The notes under the pieces: generated by a model
The model's input: the letters and a program-made list of their open reading frames with translations, nothing else
What the model was told of the DNA's origin: nothing
Database searches by the model: none
Assembly: GCA_021463165.1 (NCBI GenBank)
Contig: JAJTWY010000012.1
Span: 1-64,000 of the forward strand
DNA length: 64,000 nucleotides
Source of the DNA: Pyrinomonadaceae bacterium
GTDB lineage: Bacteria; Acidobacteriota; Blastocatellia; Pyrinomonadales; Pyrinomonadaceae
Reading direction: 5' to 3'
Translations under genes and position numbers: made by a program
Part shown: piece by piece, positions 3,653-45,305 of the stretch
Position numbering within the stretch: position 1 is the stretch's first letter
Layout of the letters: every line of letters starts with the position of its first letter

Positions 3653-4933
3653 TCAGCCTCCGTGATAGAGCTTCCCGATCTGATCTTTGACTTCCGCCGG
3701 AAAGCATATCCGATGGATCCGATAGCCCTCCTGCAACCCTCTTACCGCAGAACTGACCTCAGATATTTCGCGGATCTTGGGCCGCGAAAAGCCCGATTCC
3801 ACGTAGATCATCTTACCGCCTTCATCGGAGCTTTTTGCGTAGAACGAATAGGGAGCGTTGGTTGCCTTGTCTTCGACAAAATAATAGTCAGGGTCGAATC
3901 CGGCCGCCGCAACGATGCCTCGGGAGCTAGACACAAACTGGGAGCGCTCCGCCTCAGGCATATCCAGGTCGATCGCCTTGAAGAGCCTGCGATCCAGAAA
4001 TCTACCGGCAAGGTCGGCGAGGATCCTGTCCCCGGAGTGCTGCCAACGCTTGATACTGAAGATAACGTCGGTGTCGTCGAGCTCAAGATGCTGTTCAAGA
4101 GTTAGCGGCTCGCCGTCGAGTATGCGATCCATCGGCGTATCGCTTGCGCGCCAGACATCGGGCCCTTGCGATAGGTAAAGAGCACGGGCGAAGAGAACCC
4201 GCAGGATAGCCTCGGCGGATCGGAGCGTTCGGTGAAAATAGACCTGCCGATACATGTAATAGCGGGCCTGAAGGTAGTCTTCGACCGCGTAAGTGCCCGG
4301 AGCCGAGACATACAAATGGTCGCCGTCTTCGTTGATCTCGATCGACTTTATTATCCATTCAAGATCGAAGATCCCGTATTTGGCGCCTGTCATCAGGCTG
4401 TCGCGAAGCAGATAGTCCATCCGGTCAACGTCGAGCTGGGACGAGACCAACTGGGCGAGGGCCCGACGGCCAAAATTCCCGCGAATGATCGCGGCAACAT
4501 CATCCGCTAGGCCGTCCGAGTACTCTCGCAGCAGCTTGCCGACCGATGTCTTGCTGCTGAGAACCGCTTCGACGGTGAAGTCCTCGTGATGAAACCCGAG
4601 GATCGATTCGATCACGTGAGAAAACGGCCCATGCCCGATATCGTGAAGCAGGGCAGCGATCCTGACTGCCGTCTGGTCGCGTTCGGAGATCTCATAACCC
4701 AGGCGAAGCTTGGCGATCATTCTGGTTGCCAGGTGAAACGCCCCGAGGGAATGGGTAAATCTCGAGTGCTCAGCCGCTTGATAGGCGAAGTAGGCCAGCC
4801 CCAATTGCCGTATGCGTCGAAGCCTTTGGAACTCGGGTGTATCGACCAGCGCCACCGTAAGGCGCCCCTCCGGCGAATCAGTATTTACGCGGATGATGTT
4901 GTGAACCGAGTCGCGATATATTCGTTCTGCCAC
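3653..4933 (-). CDS. HD-domain phosphohydrolase (dGTPase/SAMHD1-like)
   Basis: This 426-residue cytoplasmic protein carries a full HD metal site: EHSRFTHS (residues 55-62), HD at 97-98 within LLHDIGHGPFSH, and DVDRMDY at 168-174. This spacing matches the dNTP triphosphohydrolase/YdhJ group rather than HD-GYP signalling enzymes. Members hydrolyse deoxynucleoside triphosphates or related nucleotides. The substrate cannot be read from sequence. It is the first gene of a three-gene minus-strand unit (HD, TonB-C, plsC). Confidence 0.85.
   Translation of the reverse strand: MAERIYRDSVHNIIRVNTDSPEGRLTVALVDTPEFQRLRRIRQLGLAYFAYQAAEHSRFTHSLGAFHLATRMIAKLRLGYEISERDQTAVRIAALLHDIGHGPFSHVIESILGFHHEDFTVEAVLSSKTSVGKLLREYSDGLADDVAAIIRGNFGRRALAQLVSSQLDVDRMDYLLRDSLMTGAKYGIFDLEWIIKSIEINEDGDHLYVSAPGTYAVEDYLQARYYMYRQVYFHRTLRSAEAILRVLFARALYLSQGPDVWRASDTPMDRILDGEPLTLEQHLELDDTDVIFSIKRWQHSGDRILADLAGRFLDRRLFKAIDLDMPEAERSQFVSSSRGIVAAAGFDPDYYFVEDKATNAPYSFYAKSSDEGGKMIYVESGFSRPKIREISEVSSAVRGLQEGYRIHRICFPAEVKDQIGKLYHGG
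3657..3661 (-). promoter_or_regulatory. Shine-Dalgarno that fixes a TTG start
   Basis: GGAGG on the minus strand lies inside the last codons of the HD phosphohydrolase gene, 9 nt before the TTG at 3647. Only 5 nt separate that gene's stop from the TTG, which suggests translational coupling. Confidence 0.65.
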
Positions 4934-42740: not shown

Positions 42741-42961
42741 GGATCACTTCTGTCGCGTGGATGTTCGACGAAATGGGTAATACCGCTGCCCCAAAGTTAG
42801 CGAGATCAGCAGACGAGTCTTTCGGGATCGCAATCAACCCCGGAGCCGACGCCAAAACCATGATGAAACTCTACGACGTCCTCGACGACAACGACGACGT
42901 GCAAAAGGTCTGGGCAACCTTTGACATCGACGAGAGTGAGATGGATTTAATGACTCGGTAG
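42741..42961 (+). pseudogene. yebC: YebC/PmpR remnant, internally deleted
   Basis: In one frame the region reads TSVAWMFDEMG and then AINPGADAKTMMKLYDVLDD NDDVQKVWATFD, which match the central and C-terminal parts of YebC-type regulators. The start codon, the first ~125 residues and ~60-80 residues between the two parts are missing. An internal ATG at 42761 could still start a 66-codon frame, so expression of a short protein cannot be excluded. It lies between lepA and the methylase gene. Confidence 0.6.
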
Positions 42962-42980: not shown

Positions 42981-43008
42981 TTGACGGCTCTCAACTATGT
43001 GATACAAT
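42981..43008 (+). promoter_or_regulatory. Methylase promoter
   Basis: TTGACG (42981-42986), a 16-nt spacer and TACAAT (43003-43008). The -10 hexamer overlaps the first base of the palindromic operator-like sequence at 43008-43024, placing that site at the start of transcription. Confidence 0.55.
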
Positions 43009-43024
43009 ATCCCAAAATGGGATA
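43008..43024 (+). promoter_or_regulatory. Operator-like palindrome at the methylase promoter
   Basis: TATCCC-AAAAT-GGGATA is a perfect 6-bp inverted repeat with a 5-nt centre, placed on the transcription start of the methylase gene. The same sequence with two changes occurs upstream of the regulator gene (45289-45305). The XRE protein at 45016 is the obvious candidate binder. Confidence 0.6.
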
Positions 43025-43037
43025 ACGGAAATGAATC

Positions 43038-44129
43038 ATGTCTGAAATCTCCGCCGTAAAATCAAAAGTGATTCCACCGAGTACGGTTGGACGTGGAAAA
43101 GTGCTTTCACTTGAAACACTTCCGTCGGATAATTACTGGTCCGATGGAGATACAACGGTTTACTTCGGTGACAGCCTTGATTTTTATAACAAATGGTCGA
43201 GTCCGACAGTGATTGTATCCGACGGAGCCTATGGGATTCTCGGTTTCGAAGGAGACACGTCTGATCATTTGGAACTGCCGAAATGGTATGAACCTCACAT
43301 CGAAGGATGGAGCAACGCCGCCACGGCTCGGACTACGTTGTGGTTTTGGAATTCAGAAATAGGATGGGCTTCCGTTCATCCGGTTCTGGAGAGATATGGC
43401 TGGCGATACGTTAATGCGAATGTTTGGAATAAGGGAATGGCCCATATTGCCGGAAACGTCAACACTGCCAAGATTCGTCGTTTTCCAGTTGTAACTGAAA
43501 TGTGTGTGCAATATGTTTTTGAACCTAGGATTGATGATTTGCCAATCAAGCAATGGTTATACCGTGAATGGAAACGAACCGGTCTGCCCTTTAACAAAGC
43601 TAACGAGGCCTGTGGCGTCAAGGACGTAGCCGTTCGAAAGTACTTAGACCAAGGTCACCTTTGGTATTACCCACCACCTCAAATGTTTGTTCTAATGGCG
43701 GAATATGCTAACCGATATGGAAATCCTGAAGGCCTTCCGTACTTTTCACGAAACGGCAAAAATCCAATGACTTTCGATGAGTGGGAGGCGATGCGCTCCA
43801 CATTTAATTGTCCGATAGGTTTCACAAATGTTTGGGATCGAAATCCACTGAAAGGTGCTGAACGTATTACAACGTCGACAAATGGCGGAAAAGTTGTGCA
43901 TCTTAATCAAAAACCGCTCGATTTAATGAAGCTGATCATTGAGGCTTCGAGCAAGCCTAATGATGTGGTTTGGGAACCATTTGGCGGTTTATTTTCAGCT
44001 TCGCTCGCCGCGAAACAAACCGGACGACTCTCATTTGCCGGTGAAATTGACCCGACTTATTTTCAATTGGGACTTCAACGTCTTAAATCTCCAATACAAC
44101 CCGCATTAGATTACTCGATTACGGGCTGA
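43038..44129 (+). CDS. Type II DNA methyltransferase
   Basis: The product is 363 residues. Motif order is catalytic first and SAM-binding last: SDGAYG (61-66) near the N-terminus and VWEPFGGLFSASLAA (311-325) near the end, as in beta-class N4-cytosine or N6-adenine methyltransferases. The usual (D/N/S)PP(Y/F/W) motif reads SDGAYG here. A predicted endonuclease gene converges and overlaps by 19 nt. GC content is clearly lower than in lepA, which suggests transfer. The recognition sequence is unknown. Confidence 0.82.
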   Translation: MSEISAVKSKVIPPSTVGRGKVLSLETLPSDNYWSDGDTTVYFGDSLDFYNKWSSPTVIVSDGAYGILGFEGDTSDHLELPKWYEPHIEGWSNAATARTTLWFWNSEIGWASVHPVLERYGWRYVNANVWNKGMAHIAGNVNTAKIRRFPVVTEMCVQYVFEPRIDDLPIKQWLYREWKRTGLPFNKANEACGVKDVAVRKYLDQGHLWYYPPPQMFVLMAEYANRYGNPEGLPYFSRNGKNPMTFDEWEAMRSTFNCPIGFTNVWDRNPLKGAERITTSTNGGKVVHLNQKPLDLMKLIIEASSKPNDVVWEPFGGLFSASLAAKQTGRLSFAGEIDPTYFQLGLQRLKSPIQPALDYSITG

Positions 44130-45019
44130 TTGCTTTCGGTAATATTGAAAAGAACCTCTAATTCATGCCTAACTTCATCGTCGTTACCTTTTGAAAGCAG
44201 CCGATTCCATGAACCGATTGTTCGGCCTTGAAAATTTTTTTCATAAACTCTATTTTTAAAGGCTTCGATTTCAGCGTGAACAATTCGATCCATTTTTGCG
44301 TAGTTCGTGTCTAAGCGATATGGAAACTTAGACATCAGAGTTCTGAGCTTGGCTTGGTATTCTACTGTTGGCGAATATTCCAGCTTTCCCCACTTTTTAA
44401 CAATAGATTGAGCTGTCTTGAATTCGTCCGGAGTTCCTTGAAACTTATAGCCATTCGTATTCGTCTGTTGCAGATTACTTGTTCTTGTAGTCGTATCGCC
44501 CGGTTCTAATACCAGATAATCCGGCGGATTGTGATAATGATCATCACGAGCTTTTGCAACTGAGTGACCTGAGACGATTACAATATCAAGTATCGTCGGC
44601 TTGCCGAAAATCAGAAATTCAGGTAGCCAAGCAAGCATCGCAACTTGTGTTCTGTCATCTAAAAAATTGTTTTGGCTATCCTTGAATCGAGCTGTTATTT
44701 CAGTAGCAAGAGGGAACCAAGCCTTTACTTCAAAGCCCGGAATAGGCAAGACGTTACCCACAAAAATTGTGTCAGGAAATCCTGGATCTTGTCTGTGCCA
44801 TCTACCTAATTTGGCAAATTCTTTTTGATCATTTAAATATTCACAGACATTAAACTCGATTAGATTTCCGACCATCGGCGAGAGTTTCGAGATGATCCTA
44901 GCCAGATTTACAGCTGCATCTGGCGATACAGGTTTAGTGAGTTCAAGCACATCGAAAGAATGTCCAATCAACGCGCGTAAATGGCGCTTTGCGAGAGTTA
45001 TTACGGTTTTCGTCTTCAT
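44111..45019 (-). CDS. Putative type II restriction endonuclease
   Basis: This 302-residue protein has no clear family that I recognise, but a PD-(D/E)XK nuclease site is visible: PD at 82-83 (GFPDTIFVG) and EVK at 97-99 (GFEVKAW), with a possible upstream Glu at 55 (NLIEFNVCEYL). The short, low-GC gene converges with the methylase gene and shares an operon with the small XRE regulator (4-nt overlap at 45016-45019). The context makes restriction the best call. Confidence 0.75.
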   Translation of the reverse strand: MKTKTVITLAKRHLRALIGHSFDVLELTKPVSPDAAVNLARIISKLSPMVGNLIEFNVCEYLNDQKEFAKLGRWHRQDPGFPDTIFVGNVLPIPGFEVKAWFPLATEITARFKDSQNNFLDDRTQVAMLAWLPEFLIFGKPTILDIVIVSGHSVAKARDDHYHNPPDYLVLEPGDTTTRTSNLQQTNTNGYKFQGTPDEFKTAQSIVKKWGKLEYSPTVEYQAKLRTLMSKFPYRLDTNYAKMDRIVHAEIEAFKNRVYEKNFQGRTIGSWNRLLSKGNDDEVRHELEVLFNITESNQPVIE

Positions 45020-45261
45020 TTCCTAACTCCCGATTCAAGTTCAGAAATAAGTTTTGTCGGATCAATTCCGAGTACTTCGCAGACTTGTAATGTTTCAATA
45101 AGATCGAGCCTTCGTTCACCTCCTTCATACTTTGCAACGAAGGATTGTGGCCTTCCCAGTTGGGATGCAACTTCCACCTGAGTAAGACCAGACGTTTCTC
45201 TTGCCCTAATCAAAATTGAACGGAATAACTCGTATTCTGGAGTATGAAGAGACTTTGCCAT
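45016..45261 (-). CDS. XRE-type controller protein of the restriction system
   Basis: The product is 81 residues, almost entirely one HTH domain (TSGLTQVEVASQLGRPQSFV, then KYEGGERRLDLIETLQVCEV). It is the size and shape of C proteins that time restriction gene expression. Its stop overlaps the endonuclease start by 4 nt. A palindrome matching that at the methylase promoter lies 28 nt upstream of its ATG. Confidence 0.82.
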   Translation of the reverse strand: MAKSLHTPEYELFRSILIRARETSGLTQVEVASQLGRPQSFVAKYEGGERRLDLIETLQVCEVLGIDPTKLISELESGVRK

Positions 45262-45288
45262 TTAGGAATAATAAATCCTAAAATCGGA

Positions 45289-45305
45289 TAACCCATTTCG
45301 GGATA
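45289..45305 (-). promoter_or_regulatory. Operator-like site upstream of the controller gene
   Basis: On the minus strand this is TATCCC-GAAAT-GGGTTA, identical to the methylase site (43008-43024) at 15 of 17 positions. A second short inverted repeat (7-bp arms 45261-45267 and 45276-45282) lies between it and the controller ATG. Controller (C) boxes usually sit in this position. Confidence 0.55.

Follow-up and report, generated by a model that had tools for sequence, protein, structure and literature searches.

The window analysed here, a stretch of 64,000 nucleotides, contains a compact Type II restriction-modification (R-M) island in which a small XRE/HTH controller protein, C, probably acts as a repressor on both sides: on the methylase gene (M) through a single operator, OM, and on its own operon with the endonuclease gene (R) through a double operator, O1-O2. 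The probability of this reading, which is drawn from the sequence, is put at roughly 0.75. The features concerned are the following:

42981-43008, plus strand: predicted M promoter, TTGACG-16-TACAAT, with TG before the -10 hexamer (10/12 consensus)
43008-43024, no strand assigned: OM, putative operator on the predicted methylase transcription start, TATCCCAAAATGGGATA, a perfect palindrome and the best match of all
43038-44129, plus strand: M, DNA methyltransferase of the N6_N4 family (Pfam N6_N4_Mtase 1.3e-12; PADLOC MTase_II 2.6e-18)
44111-45019, minus strand: R, Type II restriction endonuclease (PADLOC REase_II 5.1e-41; invariant active-site residues)
45016-45261, minus strand: C, 81-aa single-domain XRE/HTH regulator (HTH_31 7.3e-9; PADLOC Control_protein 2.6e-4)
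45254-45270, minus strand: third, weak match overlapping the start codon of C, with 3 mismatches to the pattern, probably a chance match
45268-45273, minus strand: predicted C-R -10 hexamer, TATTAT, 6 nt before the C start codon, at the same position in relatives
45274-45290, minus strand: O2, putative proximal C-R operator, TATCCGATTTTAGGATT, centre about -21, with the same doublet in relatives
45289-45305, minus strand: O1, putative distal C-R operator, TATCCCGAAATGGGTTA, centre about -36

C lies directly upstream of R in the same orientation, with an overlap of 4 bp, and the cognate M adjoins, overlapping R tail-to-tail by 19 bp, which is the arrangement of a C-controlled Type II R-M system; the gene coordinates agree with the convergent, overlapping methylase and endonuclease genes with one controller described by the first-pass annotation. 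The methylase has EPFGG as motif I and the variant SDGAYG as motif IV (residues 61-66), and SDG[A/G/P]YG, not DPPY/SPPY, is kept in 20/20 aligned homologues. R contains the pattern FPD-x13-E-x-K, of the PD-(D/E)xK type, in which P82, D83, E97 and K99 are invariant among 19-20 homologues. Its structure model (pLDDT 81) has SwaI (Z 9.1), HincII (7.8) and EcoRV (6.9) as the nearest solved folds, and R can be assigned to the PD-(D/E)xK Type II endonucleases, with moderate support from the modelled fold. A sequence search of R against solved structures gave no match, a profile search gave chance-level matches only, and no R homologue was found in phage records. The profile matches of C include 3f6w (1.5e-29), C.BclI (3e-11), C.AhdI (2.6e-9) and C.Esp1396I (3e-4), and Control_protein models hit 17/20 members; C is thus kin to known C proteins, yet uncharacterised XRE proteins are nearer to it in the profile search.

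Two 17-bp palindromes had been proposed as a shared operator, and both are present at the reported coordinates, TATCCCAAAATGGGATA and TATCCCGAAATGGGTTA being identical at 15/17 positions. A pattern covering both sites, with up to 3 mismatches allowed, has 5 matches in the 64-kb window against 0.64 expected, a number reached by 0/100 shuffles, and all 5 lie inside the R-M island. Scored against TATCCC-N5-GGGATA on both strands of the 64 kb, at least 10/12 is reached at OM and O1 only, and TATCCCN5GGGWTA with 0 mismatches occurs only in the island across the 3.66-Mb genome. The earlier view of a single shared site before C-R holds as to its presence but not its number. O2, which had been overlooked, abuts O1 upstream of C with centres 15 bp apart, so the C-R side has a double operator, two adjacent candidate dimer sites before C being a hallmark of C-protein systems. 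A third operator at the C start codon (45254-45270) was considered and rejected, as it is not conserved in relatives.

On the methylase side, the first base of OM is the last T of the -10 hexamer, and the centre of OM falls on the expected +1, near 43015. L007 and the Aeromonas plasmid have a fused -10/OM layout of this kind, TTGCAA-16-TAMAAT, which makes occlusion of polymerase the natural reading of the site. The convergent M with a single candidate C site on its predicted transcription start matches the layout of Esp1396I, in which repression at OM has been proven (PMC4041747). Repression of the methylase by C through OM, as suggested by the first-pass annotation, is therefore supported by a conserved geometry and is likely. 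In a general promoter scan, promoter-like matches were no commoner than in shuffles, and the -10 and start sites given here are predictions.

On the C-R side, a -10-like hexamer occurs at the same place in L007 (TACCAT), L008 (TATTAT) and L030 (TATCAT), and its location six bases from the C start codon in four loci implies a leaderless transcript. Counted from the predicted leaderless start, O1 covers the predicted -35 and O2 falls in the spacer between it and the -10. The Csp231I doublet has its repressing, proximal site over the -35 and its activating, distal site further upstream (PMC4824078). In the island, unlike in Csp231I, the distal O1 itself covers the -35, which favours autorepression over activation.

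A different circuit would be a full timer of the Esp1396I/PvuII type, in which O1 activates C-R, O2 then represses it, OM represses M and the endonuclease appears in a delayed burst. The island has the same gene layout, with one plus two operators at the 15-bp spacing of a GACT-type double site, a C start that is leaderless, like those of PvuII and Csp231I, and a poor C-R -35, all of which would suit such a timer. However, if transcription begins at the C start codon or ahead of it, the operator centres fall at about -36 (O1) and -21 (O2), and the whole doublet lies about one operator nearer the start than in Csp231I (PMC4824078); the timer is accordingly considered rather unlikely. Since O1 and O2 cover the -35 and the spacer and are not upstream of the promoter, positive feedback is not indicated by the sequence; slight activation while C is scarce is conceivable, though likewise not indicated. 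The activation that had been suggested as one option at this promoter is not supported by these positions. Positive feedback is the source of the delay in PvuII/Esp1396I-type timers, and the self-timed switch that was also proposed is not established.

The reading of C as a repressor at both promoters draws further evidence from relatives. The C-R-M arrangement is kept in L007, L008, L013-L017, L019, L026 and L030, and relatives from Proteobacteria and Cyanobacteria that keep C have both operator sets, although OM is not found in every locus. A double operator before C together with a single one before M is present in L007, L008, L030, L015, L017, L019 and L031, the doublet before C being TATCCCAAAATGGGATA-TCCGAACTTGGGATA in the Aeromonas plasmid and AATCCCATTTTGGGATTATCCTAAAATAGGTTT in Microcystis. 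An OM-like site is clear in the window, L007, L008, L015, L017, L019, L030 and L031 and weaker in L026, and a TATCC-type site before M was not found in the C-carrying L013, L014 and L016, so methylase control is not universal. Clear OM-like sites were thus found in 8/12 C-carrying loci (6/10 when the three Microcystis loci count as one) and in 0/12 loci that have M and R homologues but lack C, a difference with a one-sided hypergeometric probability of ~0.0007, or 0.003 with Microcystis merged, when loci are treated as independent. Four of these C-less genomes are devoid of C homologues altogether. The first-pass annotation had named absence of the palindromes from close homologues as a result that would speak against it; this comparison was made and did not refute the proposal. 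In L031 (3518-5561), a relative on a Nostoc plasmid, transposase genes split R, and C, M and the operators persist. L013 has a second shared palindrome, AACCACATTTGTGGTTT, before both C (~4640-4740) and M, which, together with the missing TATCC-type site at M, is possibly an operator switch.

The uneven distribution of OM also bears on whether autoregulation alone is real and OM is an inactive remnant within the promoter. Operators in front of C are far commoner than OM, and some C-carrying relatives are devoid of it, as such a remnant would predict. Nevertheless, the OM of the window is a perfect palindrome and the best match, its spacing to the -10 is conserved in three distant loci, and the site recurs before an unrelated methylase, which makes an inert OM improbable.

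Covariation between the recognition helix of C and its operator was followed in 93 distinct C homologues, with a TATCC-type site defined as a match of 8/10 or better in the 130 bp upstream. Such a site is present in 59/74 homologues with Lys44 and without Thr38, among which the TAGTC type occurs in 0/74; TAGTC-N7-GACTA is found in 6/7 homologues with Thr38 and TATCT-N7-AGATA in 6/12 in which Lys44 is replaced, counts that share descent and are not independent, most Thr38 cases coming from few lineages. Each of the three operator classes occurs in more than one lineage, and the background in random 136-bp stretches of the same loci is 5.6% for TATCC, 2.4% for TAGTC and 4.0% for TATCT. The Thr38 rule was fixed before a second homologue set was collected, in which the one new independent case, L133, agreed; the later Thr38 case L171 also agreed but is 76% identical to L043, so the test, though consistent, is a small one. 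The rule for Lys44 was drawn up post hoc, with L175 later agreeing and L174 carrying a hybrid site. Two homologues with Arg38, L142 and L173, carry TACCCGAATTTGGGGTA, possibly a further operator class, and L083, L087 and L104 have ACCC-type arms despite Pro38.

Of the sequence evidence for recognition of the palindrome by C itself, this covariation is the strongest. Together with the footprints of the site in relatives and its loss along with the regulator, it upholds the earlier naming of the XRE protein as the binder, which C very probably is. Alternatively, the palindromes could be sites of a host regulator or RNA hairpins. A perfect 6-bp palindrome could fold if transcribed, but the predicted +1 lies inside OM, and O1-O2 are upstream of the leaderless start, so none would be transcribed whole; there was no Rfam match, and the hairpin was rejected on the geometry of the predicted starts. 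Against a host regulator, the sites accompany the C gene in different phyla and on plasmids, are missing where C is missing, and change with the recognition-helix residues of C. An origin of the palindromes outside the C circuit is thus very improbable.

The C family is also found with unrelated partners. On a Planktothrix plasmid, it precedes an unrelated gene and two D12-class methylases, and on an Acinetobacter plasmid, it precedes a Type II endonuclease accompanied by a Dam-type methylase. TATCCCGTTTTGGGAT stands before C on both plasmids, and on the Acinetobacter plasmid, TATCCTGTTTTGGGATA stands before the methylase, which is unrelated to M. Many orphan C homologues lie beside transporter, plasmid or phage genes, with the motif still present. 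A broader reading, to which somewhat less than even odds are given, is that these proteins form a widespread group of single-domain XRE autoregulators with a simple operator code, repeatedly recruited with their operator by unrelated R-M systems as pure repressors of both arms and not as activator-repressor timers. In the same reading, Pro or His at residue 38 would specify TATCC and Thr TAGTC, and a change of Lys44 to Asp or Arg would specify TATCT.

The R-M genes are flanked directly by a 3' remnant of yebC (similarity 42840-42951, stop 42961) and by the stop of a glyoxalase gene (45307). An ORF at 42761-42961, after lepA, has the yebC 3' end as its second half. An intact yebC is present on another contig of the source genome, and in five same-genus genomes that keep the glyoxalase gene, the yebC 3' end is ~0.5 to 1.2 kb from it and lepA is on a different contig from it. 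The remnant is probably a trace of the rearrangement through which the island arrived. The R-M genes fill the ~2.35-kb interval between the flanks, and the simplest account is acquisition by horizontal transfer, accompanied by rearrangement. M homologues were found in only 4/297 genomes of the phylum, the source genome included, and R homologues occur in Proteobacteria, Cyanobacteria, Planctomycetota and one archaeal assembly. In the same phylum, L004, L005 and L006 have relatives of M (~49% identical), with no R or C homologue detectable in the fetched stretch.

Binding by C, the direction of regulation and its timing are read from genes, sites, geometry, conservation, co-occurrence and covariation. 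After arrival in a new cell, M would be expressed first from its strong promoter, with slow firing of the weak, leaderless C-R promoter. The palindrome recognised by C dimers would be TATCC(C)-N5-(G)GGATA. At OM, a single dimer placed over -10/+1 of the M promoter would block RNA polymerase, and methylase synthesis would drop as C accumulates. On the C-R side, a pair of adjacent dimers at O1 and O2 would cover the -35 and the spacer between -35 and -10, and autorepression would keep both C and R low, at a set level.

It is the controller protein that determines whether a new host survives the entry of an R-M island and, later, how strongly the island blocks gene flow. Esp1396I-like wiring with a layout that suggests double repression would offer a test of the need for positive feedback in establishment, and a predictable operator would make controller-run defence islands and their cross-talk predictable from sequence alone.

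Among known systems, Esp1396I resembles the island in its convergent M and C-R, the one OM at the methylase start, the two adjacent C-R operators, the 15-bp centre spacing and the small HTH controller. The canonical GACT-type double site consists of an 11-bp core plus about 4 bp, which gives the same 15-bp spacing (PMC4321490). The operators differ, being TATCC-N7-GGATA in the island and GAC/GTC boxes around TATA in Esp1396I, the kinship of the island C with C.Esp1396I is distant (profile E about 3e-4), and the C-R doublet is apparently closer to the start in the island. The classical C-box, GACT-N3-AGTC, does not describe the island operators, which are TATCCC-N5-GGGATA.

Motif 8 is one of the motif classes of Sorokin 2009, which reportedly number ten in all. 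Its members Csp231I and EcoO109I share with the island convergent R and M, repeats with a 5-bp A-rich spacer and a leaderless C, whereas they have CTAAG-N5-CTTAG, 18 bp between sites and a C of ~98 aa with two extra helices. With its different arms, 15-bp centre spacing and 81-aa C, the island falls outside motif 8. In Csp231I, C binding at the methylase promoter was not seen (PMC4824078). Another comparison is offered by the Kpn2I controller, which, like the island C, resembles general XRE proteins more closely than classical C proteins and which represses the methylase, as the island C probably does; its site is inside the C gene, has no paired inverted repeats and acts as an elongation roadblock (PMC6237814). 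The closest solved relatives of the island C are the XRE structures 3f6w, 3eus and 2ef8, for which a literature search by name found no description of function or operator, and a literature text search with the motif and R-M terms found TATCCC in no paper. The operator class, set apart from GACT/AGTC and CTAAG only, and the promoter geometry therefore appear distinct within what is probably a known kind of circuit with Esp1396I-like wiring.
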